Below are positions 5,334 through 19,533 of a stretch of DNA of 64,000 bases, one piece after another. The notes under the pieces are model-generated. The model saw nothing but the letters and a program-made list of their open reading frames with translations, was not told the DNA's origin and did not search any database. Position numbers and translations under genes: made by a program. Source of the DNA: Roseibium sp. (GTDB taxonomy: Bacteria > Pseudomonadota > Alphaproteobacteria > Rhizobiales > Stappiaceae). Position 1 is the stretch's first letter. Each line of letters begins with the position of its first letter. Where the stretch lies: assembly GCA_017643215.1 (NCBI GenBank), contig JAEPNV010000001.1:248001-312000 (forward strand). Reading direction: 5' to 3'.

Positions 5334-6083
5334 TCAGGTGTTGTTGAGCGCGTGCCCGACTGCGGTCAGGAAGCTGGTCAGGTTGTCCGTGACGAAGTCG
5401 ACATGACGCGCCTTTTCGCCTTCCAGCGCCCATTCCTCCTCAAAAAGCGGCCGTGTGTTGGCCGGCACGATGAGGACGGTCTGCATGCCCAGGCGATGCG
5501 GCACGATCAGGTTCCGGGACAGGTCCTCGAACATGGCCGCGCGCGCGGGCGAGACGCCGGTCTGCTCCAGGAACATGTCATAGGTTTCGCGGTTCGGCTT
5601 GGGAACGAGATCCGCCGCCACGATATCGAAAATATCCTCGAAATGATCGGTGATCCCAAGCGCCTGGGCTGTCCGTTCGGCATGGGGCCGGTCGCCGTTG
5701 GTGAAGATGAATTTGCGTCCGGGCAGGGCCGCAATGGCTTTTTCCAGCTTTGGGTCAGGGGTGACTGCTGAATAGTCGATGTCGTGGGCATAGGCCAGGA
5801 AGTCGTCCGGATCGACCTCGTGTTCGATCATCAGGCCGCGCAACGTCGTGCCGTAGGTTTCGTAATACCCCTTTTGCCGGATGTGTGCTTCCGCGGGATC
5901 GAGATCGAGCAGTTTGGCGACGTAATCCGCGATCTGCTCGTTGATCTGGCTGAAAAGATCGGTTTCAGCCGGGTAAAGCGTGTTGTCGAGATCGAAGATC
6001 CAGGCTTCGACGCCTTTGAAAACACGCAGATCGCGCCGGCGGGACTGCTCTTTTTTGACGGTTTTGTGCATCTGTTCGCTCAC
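5334..6083 (-). CDS. Pyrimidine 5'-nucleotidase, HAD superfamily (SDT1-like)
   Basis: A 249-aa haloacid-dehalogenase-fold phosphatase. HAD motif I is FDLDNTLYP (nucleophile Asp and acid/base Asp), motif [15 protein letters not shown], motif III the lysine at [10 protein letters not shown] and motif IV FEDLSRN. These place it in the subfamily IA variant 3 group that dephosphorylates pyrimidine nucleoside monophosphates in yeast and plants. It starts at a GTG overlapping the argB stop (GTGA), so it is translationally coupled to argB, a pairing widespread in alphaproteobacteria. Substrate assignment is by family only. Confidence 0.85.
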
Positions 6084-6967
6084 GGCCGGATCAAGGTCCC
6101 GACCCCGCCGTCGGTAAAAAGCTCAAGCAAAACGGCATGGGCAACCTTGCCGTCCAGGATGACGACCCCCTCGACGCCCTGATCCAGCGCTTCGATACAG
6201 GTTTCCACCTTGGGGATCATACCACCGGAAATGGTTCCGTCTGCGATCAGGTCCCTGGCCTTGGCGACCGTCAGCTGTTTGATCAGTTTGCCGTCCTTGT
6301 CGAGGACCCCGGGCACATCGGTCAGGAACAACAGCCGCGTCGCATTCAGCGATCCGGCAATGGCGCCGGCGAAGGTGTCCGCGTTAATGTTGTAGGTGTT
6401 GCCGTCGGGGCCGGGGGCGACGGGTGCGACGACCGGAATAAGGTCTTCCTTGAGAACCAGTCTGAGCACGGTCGGATTGACGTCGGCCGGTTCGCCGACG
6501 AATCCCAGATCGACGAGCTTCTCGATATTGGAATCCGGATCCACAATCGTGCGGCGCAGCTGCTCCGCGGTGACCATGTTGCCGTCCTTGCCACACAGGC
6601 CAACGGCCCGGCCGCCCTCGGCATTGATGGATTGAACGATTTCCTTGTTGATGGAGCCGGCCAGCACCATCTCGACGATTTCCACGGTCGCCTTGTCGGT
6701 GACCCTGAGGCCCGCGCGGAATTCGCTGACAATACCAAGGCGGGTCAGCATGGTGCCGATTTGCGGTCCGCCGCCATGCACGACCACGGGATTGACGCCC
6801 GATTGCCGCAAAAGCGTGATGTCGCGGGCAAACGCCTTTCCAAGCTCGGGGTCTCCCATGGCATGACCGCCATACTTCACGACCACCATCTTGTTGTCGT
6901 AGCGCTGCATATACGGCAATGCCTGGGCAATGACGTGGGCGCGGCTGTGGTGGTCGGGAGCGGTCAT
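6080..6967 (-). CDS. argB: Acetylglutamate kinase
   Basis: ArgB phosphorylates N-acetyl-L-glutamate, the second step of arginine (ornithine) synthesis and usually the feedback-controlled one. At 295 aa it is of normal length and has the amino-acid-kinase fold signatures [21 protein letters not shown] and VGLCGKDGN, with [13 protein letters not shown] near the C-terminus. I take the ATG giving [20 protein letters not shown]; a longer 25-residue extension is low-complexity. It is followed by the coupled HAD phosphatase gene and preceded by engB about 100 bases away. Confidence 0.96.
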
Positions 6968-7066
6968 ATTGGGGGTACTCGTTGGGTGGGTTGGCGGTCC
7001 GGACCCCGGTCTATAGCTCTTTTGGACCGTGGTCTCAATCAAGCAAAGCAGTTCGGAACGGTGTCG

Positions 7067-7714
7067 TCAGGATGCGGTGAGGCGGGCGATCTCGGCACGC
7101 AGGATGTCGATCCCGCGCTGTTTTTCAGAGGAGGTGGCGATCAACTCCGGATGGGCCGCGATGCGTTTGCGCAATGCGGTGCCGGTCTCAGTTTCCAGGC
7201 GAGTGAGTTGCGGCGGCTTGATCTTGTCCGACTTTGTCAAAACGACCTGATAGACCACGGCCGCCTTGTCGAGAAGCTCCATGGCTTCCAGATCGATCTT
7301 CTTCAGGCTATGGCGGCTGTCGATGAGAAGGAAGACCCGGCGCAAATTGGGGCGCCCGCGCAAGTAGGCGAACACCAGATCCGTCCAGGCGGCGACCAGT
7401 TCCTTCGGCGCCTGGGCGTAGCCATAGCCGGGCATGTCCACGATGGTCAGCGGCGTATCCGGTGCGATGAAGAAATTCAGCATCTGTGTCCGCCCGGGTG
7501 TGCCGGAAGTTCGCGCCAGGCCTTTGCGCCCTGTCAAGGCGTTGATCAGGCTTGATTTTCCAACGTTTGACCGGCCGGCAAAGGCAACTTCCGCGCCGCC
7601 TGCCTCTGGCAGGTTGGCCATGTCGGTGACGCTGGTTTGAAAGGCCCACGGCCGGGCGAAAAGCAGCCGCCCGGCCTCCAGTTCGTCTTCTGTAAAGGTC
7701 TGATCTGATGTCAT
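7067..7714 (-). CDS. engB: Ribosome biogenesis GTP-binding protein YihA/YsxC (EngB)
   Basis: An essential cytoplasmic GTPase needed for late assembly of the large ribosomal subunit. The 215-aa protein has the TrmE-Era-EngA-YihA family motifs: G1 GRSNVGKSS, the G2 region [10 protein letters not shown]3 DMPGYGYA and G4 LTKSDK. The N-terminal [20 protein letters not shown] is diagnostic for the family. Its position between yidC and argB is the standard Hyphomicrobiales order. The start ATG at 7714 gives a normal-length protein. Confidence 0.95.
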
Positions 7715-15169: not shown

Positions 15170-15621
15170 GGGGACTTTGCGCGCCTTGGTCGCTTGAGGG
15201 CTGTTCACCCTCAAAGGTTCGGTTCGGAGCGCGGGTACGCGGTTCAAAATCCCAAGATGGGCATGTACCATTGATCCGATTTCACACGTCGCGACAAGAG
15301 TGCTTGGGGGCATGCGATCGGGCGGTGGCGCGGCGTTTCAAGTGAAAAAGGCACGTTCCCGGATGGCGGGACCCCGGCGCGGGGACCGGGGTGGCGCGGT
15401 GAGGTTCACCGGTTCACACCAGCCAGCCAGCGATGGAATGGAACCGGACAACAGTGGGGTCGGCGCGGCCGTGACGGCGCGGCAAAAAAGTCAAAAAGGT
15501 TCTTGCATTCACCCGGCCCGCGTTTTAGACGTAGCGCCCTGTTGAGAGGGCGATGGCCACTCTGTTGGTCCTCATCGGCGCATGTCCGACACGCGGCAGA
15601 ACGTCCGATAAACGACCGATT
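15170..15621. other. Gene-free stretch between sensor kinase and tRNA-Arg
   Basis: About 450 bases with no convincing gene. A hairpin of TTGAGGG and CCCTCAA (15194-15214) sits just past the kinase stop and may help end transcription, though no T-run follows. The second half carries the candidate tRNA promoter and a stable leader hairpin listed separately. Small open frames here have no recognisable content. Confidence 0.5.
15502..15530 (+). promoter_or_regulatory. Candidate sigma-70 promoter of tRNA-Arg
   Basis: CTTGCA (15502-15507) and TTAGAC (15525-15530) are 17 bases apart and lie about 92 bases upstream of the tRNA. They resemble the alphaproteobacterial -35/-10 pattern. A perfect 6-bp hairpin, CGCCCT and AGGGCG with a 6-base loop, follows at 15535-15552. 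Confidence 0.4.
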
Positions 15622-15698
15622 GCACCGGTAGCTCAGCTGGATAGAGCACCAGACTACGAATCTGGGGGTCGGGGGTTCGAATCCTCCCCGGTGCGCCA
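15622..15698 (+). tRNA. tRNA-Arg (anticodon ACG)
   Basis: The 77-base sequence folds as a cloverleaf. The acceptor stem GCACCGG pairs with CCGGTGC, the D-arm is GCTC...GAGC, the anticodon stem CCAGA/TCTGG encloses loop CTACGAA with anticodon ACG, and the T-arm contains GGTTCGAATCC. The CCA end is encoded. In alphaproteobacteria this is the sole tRNA for CGU/CGC/CGA codons after A-to-I editing, and it is a frequent integration site for phages and islands, which fits the prophage remains that start right after it. Confidence 0.96.
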
Positions 15699-15778
15699 TA
15701 ACTTCCAATGACTTAGATGAGTATGAGTGTCTAGCAGGGTGTTGAAGAAGTCAGTCGAATGGCTTTGAGTGTTGTAGC

Positions 15779-15819
15779 GCGCAACTTCATTTGGCACATC
15801 GCGCAACTTCACTTGGCAC
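15779..15819. repeat. Two 19-bp near-identical direct repeats
   Basis: GCGCAACTTCATTTGGCAC (15779-15797) and the same sequence with one change (C for T at the eleventh base, 15801-15819) repeat with a 22-base period. They sit between the tRNA and the first prophage gene. They resemble the multiple terminal repeats of some insertion sequences, but no transposase is attached. Confidence 0.6.
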
Positions 15820-15823
15820 CCAT

Positions 15824-16027
15824 TTAAGGACCCGCTGAAGGCCGCTCGTTCAGGCTCACGCGCCAATCGCCGGTAAAGCCGAAGTCAGGCGCCGGGGCGC
15901 GCTCAGAGAACCAGAAGTCGGTGAAGGCGACAACGTTGGGGACGCAATACCAAAAGGCCTCGCCGTTGGCATCCACCGCCCACCACCGCGCGCCCTTGGG
16001 TGCTTGCTTCCAATCGAATTCGGTCAT
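15824..16027 (-). CDS. Small hypothetical protein, phage-type
   Basis: A 67-aa protein rich in Trp, Ala and Pro (FDWKQAPKGARWWAVDANGE and APDFGFTGDWRVSLNERP). Short proteins with this DWxxAPxGAxxWAxDxxGxxxWY and final DWRxSLxERP pattern are common hypotheticals in tailed phages of proteobacteria; their function is not known. It lies downstream of the ABC-ATPase/GNAT gene on the same strand, within the prophage remnant. Confidence 0.6.
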   Translation of the reverse strand: MTEFDWKQAPKGARWWAVDANGEAFWYCVPNVVAFTDFWFSERAPAPDFGFTGDWRVSLNERPSAGP

Positions 16028-16137
16028 CGGCCGCCCCCTTTCAAAGCCTGATTAAACGCCATTTAAGGGGCCGTTTAAAGACGGCCGCCGGCGCCGTGCG
16101 CTGGGCTCAATCCGAGCGAAGACATTACCTATCGCCG

Positions 16138-17250
16138 TTATTCCTCCACCCCCTCGATATACCGGAACCCTTGCACCGCCCGGAAGTGGCCGCCGTAGCC
16201 GGCGGCGTGTTCCATCGTTCGTTGGATCTTTTCCTTGGACTTGAGCTTGTTCTGACCGCACAGGAAGGCGGAGACCTGGACCCATAGGTTCGAGCGCCGG
16301 AACGCTCTGGCAAGGCCGGGATGCGACGTGTTGATCAGGGTCAGCAAGGGCCGGTTGTAGCGGTTCTCGCCCCGCCGCCACAGGGCGCAGATTTCATTCA
16401 AAAAGGTGAGACCCAGCCCCATGCCCTGCCATTCGGGCATGACAACAAACCGGCAGGCCCTGACCTCGCACAGCCCCGGACGGGGCGAAAAGGCGACATG
16501 CGCCACCGGCCGGCCGTCGAAAAACCCGGTGTAGTAGGTCGCCGCAATCGGCAAGGGCATTTTCAAATAGTGATGCGGTTCAAAAAGCGGCCAGTAGGCG
16601 CTGTTGGTTTCATGAATGTCGAGTTTGATGGGCGGGCGTCGTCGAAGATACCTCCCGGAAAACTGACCCGTCGCTGTGTCATAGGTCCAATCCGGCTGCA
16701 GCCAATCGGCAATGTCGCGATGGCAGGACAACAACACGGCCTGCCCGCCGGTCCGGCGCCACGCCTTGGCAAAGGCATGGGCGCCCACCTTTGCCACCTG
16801 CCGGTCCACCACGGACGTGAATTCGTCTATGACGATCCGCTCGGGCGCGTCGCAGATGATCCGCGCCAGATCGGCCCGGAACTTCTCGCCGTTTGACAGG
16901 ACCGCATACGGGCGAAGCCATGCCGGCACGGTGCCAAGGCCAACGGCCGACAGGGCGGCCGTCACGTGATCAACGGAAAGGCCCGGACCGATCGCGTCAA
17001 TGATGGGCGTGTCATTTGGCCATCCGGCCGGCCGATAGAGCGCATCCGGCCCGAAAATCTCAGTGCCGATCGAGGTCTTGCCGGAGCCGGACGGGCCGAC
17101 GATCAGGCCGATTTGCCAATCATGGTCCTCAATCGGCAGGTCGGCCTTGATCTCGACATTTGCCCCGGTCTCGACATTGAACAGGGATTTCACGCGGGCG
17201 GCCCGGTAGCTGTCGAAGTCATCGCAGCGGTGATTGATGTCGATCCTCAT
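16138..17250 (-). CDS. ABC-type ATPase fused to GNAT acetyltransferase domain (COG2401-like)
   Basis: A 370-aa two-domain protein. Residues about 1-205 form an ABC ATPase: Walker A GPSGSGKTS (52-60), an abbreviated signature LSNGEKFRADLARI (118-131), Walker B ERIVIDEFTSVVD (137-149) and the switch histidine in LLSCHRDI (173-180). Residues about 206-370 look like a GNAT fold, with motif A CRFVVMPEWQGMGLGLTFL (266-284) supplying the acetyl-CoA-binding Q-G-G pattern. No membrane segment is present, so it is not a transporter. The start overlaps the preceding 61-aa gene by four bases. In phage Mu the place after com is held by mom, itself GNAT-related, so a role in DNA modification is plausible but unproven. 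Confidence 0.8.
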   Translation of the reverse strand: MRIDINHRCDDFDSYRAARVKSLFNVETGANVEIKADLPIEDHDWQIGLIVGPSGSGKTSIGTEIFGPDALYRPAGWPNDTPIIDAIGPGLSVDHVTAALSAVGLGTVPAWLRPYAVLSNGEKFRADLARIICDAPERIVIDEFTSVVDRQVAKVGAHAFAKAWRRTGGQAVLLSCHRDIADWLQPDWTYDTATGQFSGRYLRRRPPIKLDIHETNSAYWPLFEPHHYLKMPLPIAATYYTGFFDGRPVAHVAFSPRPGLCEVRACRFVVMPEWQGMGLGLTFLNEICALWRRGENRYNRPLLTLINTSHPGLARAFRRSNLWVQVSAFLCGQNKLKSKEKIQRTMEHAAGYGGHFRAVQGFRYIEGVEE

Positions 17251-17432
17251 GTCACCACCACCATGAACTTGGCGCCGGCGACCGCCCTCAGGCCCTCATA
17301 GACGGCCTTTTGCGCATCCTCGTTGGGGCATACGACCACAACGCCGTATTGTTCCCGGTAGCGATTGTTCGGCGGGATGCCGGTCGAGTTTTCAGGAAGA
17401 GGCGGCAGGTCCGCCTTTTTTGACTTGGCCAT
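17247..17432 (-). CDS. Small hypothetical protein in com-ABC/GNAT module
   Basis: A 61-aa protein I do not recognise. It has a basic start (MAKSKKADLPPLPENSTGIP), then NNRYREQYGVVVVCPNEDAQ and AVYEGLRAVAG, which would form a small beta-alpha-beta unit ending in VVVT. It overlaps the com-like gene by 41 bases at its 5' end and the ABC-ATPase/GNAT gene by four bases at its 3' end. Three genes locked in overlapping order imply translational coupling, so it is probably a working part or accessory of that module. Confidence 0.65.
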   Translation of the reverse strand: MAKSKKADLPPLPENSTGIPPNNRYREQYGVVVVCPNEDAQKAVYEGLRAVAGAKFMVVVT

Positions 17433-17616
17433 TCAAAGCCTCGGTGTCTCGGCGTTCCTGTCGCTCTGAGACGGGCTCTTGTTGGTCGATGACCACGGGC
17501 CTCAAATTGTTCATCGTGCCGCAACGCGGGCACTTGATTTCTATCGCATCGATGATCGCATTGGGACGCGCTTTCATCAACAGCTTGCGGCAACTCCCGC
17601 ATCTGATTTCGTTCAT
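17392..17616 (-). CDS. com: Com-family zinc-finger translational regulator (phage Mu Com-like)
   Basis: A 74-aa protein whose first 40 residues match the Mu Com pattern: two CxxC knuckles (C6/C9 in RCGSCRKLL and C29/C32 in IEIKCPRCG) separated by about 20 residues, followed by a short tail. In phage Mu, Com binds mom mRNA and frees its start for translation of the DNA-modification enzyme Mom. Here the gene likewise overlaps the next gene downstream, by 41 bases. The C-terminal tail is variable and includes a QEPVSERQERRD stretch. Confidence 0.85.
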   Translation of the reverse strand: MNEIRCGSCRKLLMKARPNAIIDAIEIKCPRCGTMNNLRPVVIDQQEPVSERQERRDTEALNGQVKKGGPAASS

Positions 17617-18545: not shown

Positions 18546-19533
18546 TCACTCCTTCATTTCCGCCGTGCCGGACGTGGTGTAGCTGTCGGTTTCCGCGTCA
18601 TACTCATGCACCGCCTGTGTAACGATCCACTGGCCGGAAACCTCCGGTGACACATCGGAGAAGGTCAAAAGCACCTGTTCAAGGACGTCCGGATCGCCGC
18701 ATTTGCAGGTGAAATCGATGCGCCGTTCGGCCCGGCTCAACTGCTTGGCTTTGGATGTGGCGGCCGTCTCGGCAAGCTTTTCAGTCGGGAACTCCTTGCG
18801 GATCTCATACCAGGGCTCGCCCTTGCCCAACGGGGCTTTCACCACCTTGCGCTTGCCCTTGTCATGGTCCCGGCTCGACGCCTTCACGCCGGCGTAGTTG
18901 TTGCGGAAGTTCCGGCTCCAGGACTACCCCTTCAGCGTGTCCCGACCGAGGCCGTGGCTGAGGAGATTACCGGCCAGATCCACGCCGGCGGCGCGGGCCA
19001 AAAAGAACACCGTGCCGTCCTTGTATTTCTCGATCGCGTCGTGGATCCCGGCCAGCTCGCCGACCATCTGCATCAGGCTTTTTTCGCCGCGAAAGAAGTG
19101 GGGATAGGGGAAGCTTTCAAACTCCGGGCTGACCTTCAGGCCAAAGCCTTCGGCGCCGGCTTCCGTTTTCAGGATCTCGCCCAATGCCGTGTCGGTGTGG
19201 GTGCGGGTTGCCCGGTTCTTGGCACCGGCCGAGAAGTCCACGGACGTTCCGGTGATCGTGAGGTATTCGCCGTCATCCTCTTCGAAGTCGCCGCTGTATT
19301 CATCGACCAGAAACGGGCCGTGGGTGCGGCTTCGGCCGTCCTCATAGCCGATCGCGCACAACATGCCGGCGCGTTCGCGCGGCCTGGGCAGCTTGGCGCC
19401 TGGATCGGCGAGCCGACCGCCATAGGCGGTCCGGCTCGCCGCCGCTTTCCAAGGTGAGCGTTGCCGACAACAGGTGCTCGGTCACCGAGGCGCTCGGCGC
19501 GCCATCAAAGGACAGTCTGCAAAACGGGATCAC
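18546..19533 (-). pseudogene. Phage late control protein D (tail hub), broken
   Basis: Remains of the P2/Mu-type D protein, the baseplate/tail-hub scaffold. The N-terminal piece begins at a GTG (19533) with MIPFCRLSFDGAPSASVTEH, then shifts frame near 19440. The central piece (from about 19440 to 18924) contains LCAIGYEDGRSRTHGPFLVD and VSPEFESFPYPHFFRGEKSL, and ends in an in-frame TAG at 18924-18926. The C-terminal piece (18546-18887, same frame) resumes 12 codons later with YAGVKASSRDHDKGKRKVV and reaches a normal end at a stop. One frameshift plus one nonsense codon make it nonfunctional unless suppressed. The start overlaps the end of the preceding small frame as GTGA, as in phage operons. 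Confidence 0.8.

Follow-up and report, generated by a model that had tools for sequence, protein, structure and literature searches.

Three overlapping genes on the minus strand of a Roseibium sp. prophage remnant, encoding a Com-like zinc ribbon, a 61-aa protein and a fusion of an ABC ATPase to a GNAT domain, raise the question of whether they form a nucleic-acid modification system under translational control by Com, as in com-mom of phage Mu, or are the leftovers of a dying prophage. The stretch of DNA that was analysed, 64,000 nucleotides in all, is referred to here as the window. Our reading, which we hold to be somewhat probable, is that the locus is a formyltransferase-less subtype of a Com-linked phage module for nucleic-acid modification, putatively by base acylation.

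Genes of the locus and their prophage setting

The head-to-tail overlap of the three minus-strand ORFs given in a preliminary description of this DNA was confirmed by their coordinates (17392-17616, 17247-17432 and 16138-17250), with 41 nt common to the com-like gene and the gene for the 61-aa protein (the "tail" gene, for reasons given below) and 4 nt common to the tail gene and the ABC-GNAT gene. The features of the locus are as follows.

17392..17616, minus strand: com-like gene, 74 aa, with a CxxC...CxxC zinc ribbon (Zn_ribbon_Com, phrog_6417)
17247..17432, minus strand: gene for the 61-aa "tail" protein, free-standing (phrog_28816, tail HMM)
16138..17250, minus strand: gene for the 370-aa ABC ATPase-GNAT fusion (phrog_11143)
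16642..17250, minus strand: ABC ATPase domain, residues 1-203
16138..16635, minus strand: GNAT domain, residues 206-370, with QGMGLG at 275-280
16330..16332, minus strand: codon of residue 307, Asn in the window
17391..17510, minus strand: stretch that is the site of the Com-type hairpin in com-bearing relatives, without CC(N)2-3GAG in the window
15700..16137, minus strand: usual position of the formyltransferase gene in close relatives, without a match in the window
15622..15698, plus strand: tRNA-Arg(acg), edge of the remnant (ARAGORN)
18546-18887 and 18924-19364, minus strand: two ORFs that match separate parts of a single phage tail protein (phrog_52)

The eroded state of the prophage that had been described was borne out by the last two of these ORFs, which match separate parts of the single phage tail protein profile phrog_52 (677 positions; 402-514 matched by 18546-18887 and 278-376 by 18924-19364), a sign of prophage decay. 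The tRNA-Arg(acg) gene is a possible integration site; when an attachment repeat of it was looked for, nowhere else in the window did positions 15600-15800 recur as a direct repeat of 12 nt or more. Past the module, a 67-aa ORF (15824-16027) gave a weak match to phage families of unknown function (phrog_14495, 7e-8).

The com-like protein is a clear member of Pfam Zn_ribbon_Com (1.6e-14, 53.5 bits against a cut-off of 22.9), in agreement with the Com-type CxxC...CxxC zinc finger first reported, and it also matches the translational regulator family phrog_6417 (2.6e-13). The 370-aa protein falls into phrog_11143, a family of unknown function that is widespread in phages and that it matches over residues 1-366 of 370 (2.4e-146). 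Alignments upheld the statement that its key ABC motifs are intact: GPSGSGKTS at 52-60, LSNGE at 118-122, D142, E143 and H177, which we take to be those motifs, are all preserved, as is QGMGLG at 275-280, presumably the acyl-CoA loop of the GNAT domain, and the window protein agrees with the family at each of the 54 positions whose residue is shared by 97% or more of 94 sequences (window included). It departs from the consensus at 9 of 141 conserved columns, the most of any protein in a 25-sequence set, and lies outside the 15 most deviant of 87 sequences; its end branch is long, at 0.53 changes per column (median 0.2).

AlphaFold models of the whole protein and of its C-terminal part (pLDDT 85.9 and 86.3) gave structural matches to ABC ATPases and acetyl-CoA GNATs, and the best whole-length match among predicted viral proteins was a putative GNAT of Leptospira phage LE4 (TM 0.79, 27% identity). 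Pfam GNAT models matched 53/55 and 47/55 aligned members of the family. When the GNAT domain was searched by structure, the best-scoring matches were ordinary acetyl-CoA GNATs, with RimI and SpeG among the high scorers. A PADLOC mad3 match of the ABC part (4.8e-7, 27.6 bits, residues 113-151) was set aside as generic ATPase similarity. Streptococcus phage Javan141 carries the ABC ATPase (5992-6669) and the GNAT (6744-7055) as separate ORFs behind a ParB-like gene, which suggests that the two domains need not be fused or that the copy is a broken one. In a Moraxella MAG (locus L010, 6001-7155) the ABC-GNAT frame stops early (221 aa) and GNAT-like stretches lie in other frames before the formyltransferase, the mark of a damaged copy or a sequencing error.

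Module composition among relatives

By tblastn, relatives of the ABC-GNAT protein were found in 75 of 50,697 phage records, 39 of them with at least 80% protein coverage, and in IMG/VR scans 28 of 28, 430 of 431, 2 of 5 and 12 of 12 matching stretches held relatives, as did at least 595 of the 600 matching stretches listed in another such scan. Full-length relatives are rare in bacterial genomes. Matches at E <= 0.001 were obtained in 24 of 61 genomes searched, full-length in the window's own genome only, those in the others being short and confined to the ABC part; 178 of 385 genomes of the class gave matches, and among the matches listed only the window's own genome and one other (G406) had full-length ones, in a search that scored five candidates per genome and may therefore have missed some. 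In a scan of GTDB contigs, 6 of 15 matching stretches were full-length. The resulting set of 199 loci (named phage records, IMG/VR, genomes and the window) yielded 186 full proteins, or 143 that were non-redundant at 97%, 136 of which are above 48% identity to the window; a distant clade comprises 7 loci at about 40% identity.

The 61-aa protein had been described as unrecognised, which held for Pfam (up to E 1), PADLOC and NCBIfam, where it had no match, but not for phage families: it matches phrog_28816 (8.5e-8), which also matches residues 152-186 of a ParB fusion protein (L029), and it is found by a tail HMM that was built without the window sequence (1.6e-16). Direct tblastn against Gordonia ParB-like proteins gave an E of 0.08, by itself not significant, and no ParB N-terminal domain was found in the 61-aa protein (Pfam, up to E 1). 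Judged by these profile matches, the ORF is a free-standing copy of the C-terminal tail that is fused to a ParB-like domain in other phages, and the targeting or control role first proposed for it fits such an origin.

Of 134 loci offering 620 nt or more of upstream sequence, 131 have the tail: in 43 it is fused to ParB, in 66 it is a separate ORF preceded by com, and in 22 it is separate with no com recognised. Com and ParB occurred together in none of the 134. The adjacency of com and ABC-GNAT thus recurs, with com directly upstream in 66 of the 134 loci with enough upstream room; the test covered -520 to -120 only, and on a looser pattern six of the 22 remaining loci hold a Com-like zinc ribbon that it had missed. 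Up to 1600 nt upstream of the 43 ParB loci (the full 1600 nt being available in 30), nothing matched a stricter Com-like pattern common to all 66 com loci; three loose CxxC patterns were present (L108, L115 and L156). The tail and ABC-GNAT are the core of the module, and com and ParB are alternatives that exclude each other in the loci examined. Among 129 close loci where a tail was recognised, the tail and ABC-GNAT genes share exactly 4 nt in 114, and M1, C35, Q41, L48, V58 and V59 of the tail are invariant in 21 aligned rows. The ParB part is similar to the N-terminus of phage DNA methyltransferases (phrog_498, 1.7e-28; PADLOC MTase_II, 1.6e-11). Porphyromonas phage records label the tail gene "acr candidate" (L003, 7876-8004), a default anti-CRISPR reading against which the operon context argues.

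The first account, which described three genes, needs an addition here: the usual module of close relatives has a fourth gene, for a formyltransferase (PF00551, 1.2e-19), found behind ABC-GNAT in 104 of 116 assessable close loci (those with a formyltransferase match within 3 kb, or with at least 800 nt downstream and no match). In 86 of the 104 the match starts at or before the ABC-GNAT stop. No formyltransferase was found downstream of ABC-GNAT in the window; its own genome holds three distant matches elsewhere (28-36% identity), probably host genes of the PurN/Fmt/PurU type. None of eight virus records of formyltransferase-less loci had a match, in a search whose empty result, with no positive control, carries no weight by itself and with L206, L213, L222, L235, L252 and L269 outside it, and none was found in the 7 loci of the distant clade. 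In one of these, phage Jace (L005), the cassette is followed by a gene annotated as aspartate decarboxylase (7110-7535), a possible alternative donor enzyme. The best PDB profile match of the phage formyltransferase was 10-formyltetrahydrofolate dehydrogenase (4.7e-39). PurN-type enzymes have a catalytic Asn at the position before HPSLLP, and in the alignment of phage formyltransferases Gly precedes (Y/F)HPSLLP in 21 of 21 rows (in the L011 protein, residues 89-91), which may make formyl transfer unusual. In phage Axumite the formyltransferase is annotated "tRNA-methyltransferase", a label only.

The Com hairpin and residue 307

The Com target of Mu is given, in the part of PMC6483171 used here, as CC(N)2-3GAG within a hairpin loop. 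At -260 to -140 from the ABC-GNAT start this motif was found in 62 of the 66 com-bearing loci, compared with 10 on the reverse strand of the same stretch and 16, 2, 2 and 19 in other stretches of these loci, and with 11 and 9 (two stretches) of 44 loci that lack com and have a long tail ORF, a ParB fusion in 40 cases. In 33 of the 66 the motif was doubled, as GAGNNCC(N)2-3GAG, a form present in none of the five control stretches and in 1 and 0 of the 44 com-less loci. A stem of exactly four pairs encloses 86 of 149 motif sites, with none longer, whereas 119 of 2051 control sites have four or more, and a stem-closed Com-type hairpin occurs in 53 of the 66 com-bearing loci; in Mu itself the hairpin at the mom start reads ATGC-CTGCGA-GCAT. 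In a covariation test, where related loci and overlapping sites are not independent, pairs 1-3 past the closing C-G were formed at 117, 103 and 93 of the 149 sites (shuffle maxima 115, 82 and 82) and pairs 4-6 were not enriched; when each locus contributed its last site only, pairs 2 and 3 were above all 1000 shuffles and pair 1 was not. Near the tail start, folding energy did not stand out strongly (mean z -0.78 on 65 starts, with shuffles preserving single-base composition; an earlier run gave -1.7 on 12 starts, several of them misplaced), and the hairpin surfaced only through the search for the published motif.

Like L060, L239 and L227, the window bears com and lacks the motif (four loci in all): no CC(N)2-3GAG lies between -260 and -140 from its ABC-GNAT start and no hairpin is recognisable, while in Agrobacterium vitis (L011) the motif is present with no stem. 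The proposal that Com controls translation of the module is therefore well supported for the family, by the hairpin near the small-ORF start in com-bearing relatives, but for the window copy, which has no recognisable Com-type motif, we infer it only.

Position 307 of the ABC-GNAT protein is His in all 104 close loci that bear the formyltransferase. Among the 12 close loci without it, five have Asn (the window, L094, L116, L123 and L252) and seven keep His, so Asn does not simply follow loss of the formyltransferase; L116 has an abnormal C-terminus and may be a damaged copy. A further 20 loci, with too little downstream sequence, comprise 17 with His, two with Asn and one with a gap at this position, and the distant clade has Val, Tyr or Ser. 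A scan of 367 columns identified 307 as the sole strong association with the formyltransferase (hypergeometric p 4.9e-6, a value that ignores relatedness; next best 0.0033). On a quick maximum-likelihood tree with column 307 masked, H/N changes 7 times and the formyltransferase 11 times. In 3 independent, well-supported pairs differing in H/N the formyltransferase agreed in direction in 2.7 on average, with no opposite case, and in 7 independent pairs differing in the formyltransferase residue 307 followed in 2.3, was unchanged in 4.7 and never opposed, numbers of pairs too few for significance in both cases. The AlphaFold model places residue 307 in strand 303-308, just ahead of helix 311-319, where, by analogy with GNAT folds in general, it may line the donor site.

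Proposed base acylation by the module, alternatives and known systems

In the proposed mechanism, the tail peptide and the ABC-GNAT enzyme, made from overlapping genes, would act together: the GNAT domain would take the acyl group of a donor resembling acyl-CoA and transfer it to an amine of a nucleobase in phage DNA, the ABC domain, probably dimerising, would use ATP to gate or open the substrate, and the tail would dock or control the enzyme, a job tied to the ParB-like domain in other phages. In Mu-like phages Com takes the place of ParB and would switch on translation through the hairpin near the tail start, so placing modification in late infection, as with mom. Where the formyltransferase is present, it could use 10-formyl-THF to make or finish the transferred group, with His307 tuned to it; Asn307 and the missing formyltransferase suggest that the group installed by the window enzyme probably differs. 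The likeness of the ParB part to the DNA methyltransferase N-terminus and the mom form of the Com hairpin point to DNA as the substrate. Going further, one may tentatively see in residue 307 a chemistry switch, His307 with the formyltransferase giving a folate-derived formylated group and lineages that lose the formyltransferase turning repeatedly to Asn307 and a different group, an idea we consider possible though doubtful. Should it be right, the window might be one such lineage, with a Com-linked, ATP-dependent base modification distinct from that of mom, a suggestion that we put forward just as tentatively.

It is also conceivable, though unlikely, that the formyltransferase and the Com target were lost in a dying prophage, that the module is dead and that its open frames are recent leftovers. 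The missing formyltransferase, the missing Com motif and the fragmented gene for the phage tail protein agree with such decay, as do the 9 departures in 141 conserved columns and the long end branch. The three frames are nevertheless open with their usual overlaps, and Asn307 recurs in four other formyltransferase-less relatives across the tree (one of them possibly damaged), which would be unexpected from random decay. The open frames had been put down to selection, a view that the kept overlaps and the 54 intact positions support and that the missing formyltransferase and Com motif, with the long end branch, weaken. That all 54 positions are intact despite such a branch favours a working subtype, or perhaps one inactivated only recently.

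We think it improbable that the enzyme, rather than modifying DNA, serves counter-defence or host takeover by acylating protein or RNA, for instance host RNA polymerase, a restriction enzyme or the ribosome. The protein and small-molecule acetyltransferases among the structural matches, RimI and SpeG, would suit this alternative, as would two annotations that are labels only, those of the Axumite formyltransferase and the Porphyromonas phage tail gene; against it stand the ParB-like partner, of a kind fused to DNA methyltransferases, and the Com-type hairpin that the module has in common with mom. That the GNAT domain is a true relative of Mom making carbamoylmethyl-adenine, with the ABC domain as an add-on, seems to us very improbable. 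The com-first order, the overlap, the RNA hairpin and the GNAT fold are all as expected from Mu com-mom, yet hhalign of the whole protein and of the GNAT domain against Mom gave a probability of 0.1, with a shallow Mom alignment (six rows, 85-96% identical to the first). Of the structural comparison with Mom suggested at the outset, the GNAT fold of the region was recovered and its best scorers were acetyl-CoA GNATs; the Mom structure 8bv8 lay outside the 50 matches listed, and absence from such a list by itself excludes nothing.

If the formyltransferase-less, Com-linked subtype is the right reading, a single RNA switch (Com and its hairpin) would serve two different modification enzymes. A large uncharacterised phage family would become testable, with a core of tail and ABC-GNAT, a Com or ParB front end, an optional formyltransferase and a residue linked to it, and the modification would be approachable by mass spectrometry, with a genetic handle on donor choice.

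The closest precedent is a prediction (Iyer et al. 2013), reported in the part of PMC7824862 used here, that an ABC-ATPase-coupled GNAT acylates a DNA base, with Tenacibaculum phage pT24 named as an example; pT24 is a tblastn match of the window protein (34% identity, 85% coverage), the protein accession in the review not having been matched to the place. Beyond this source, a literature search at the level of titles and listings gave no pointer to a module in which ABC-GNAT is joined by Com or a formyltransferase, and the word "formyl" does not occur in the part of PMC12839542 that was seen. The window has the ABC ATPase and GNAT of the family predicted in that part of PMC7824862, and differs from it in its link to com, its separate tail in place of ParB, its lack of a formyltransferase and its Asn307; it is a variant of that family, whose association with ParB, tail and formyltransferase may partly be in Iyer et al. 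2013 already.

With Mu com-mom (NC_000929) the locus has in common the Com zinc ribbon as first gene, an overlapping downstream ORF and a GNAT-fold enzyme, and relatives of the window have a hairpin of the Mu form (ATGC-CTGCGA-GCAT), though the window's own motif is missing. The enzyme is an ABC-GNAT fusion without detected similarity to Mom and the small tail ORF lies between; in layout the module works like com-mom, while membership of the enzyme in the Mom family has no support from the profile comparison with its shallow Mom alignment. The cassettes of Gordonia and Rhodococcus phages (Axumite, Jace) have a ParB-fused tail with the same 4-nt overlap with ABC-GNAT, where the window has com; Axumite carries the formyltransferase, and none was found in Jace (about 40% identity). 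The phage formyltransferase, a gene absent in the window, differs from PF00551 enzymes in the Gly before (Y/F)HPSLLP, and its closest solved relative is the hydrolase domain of 10-formyltetrahydrofolate dehydrogenase, with which it shares HPSLLP and a conserved Asp.
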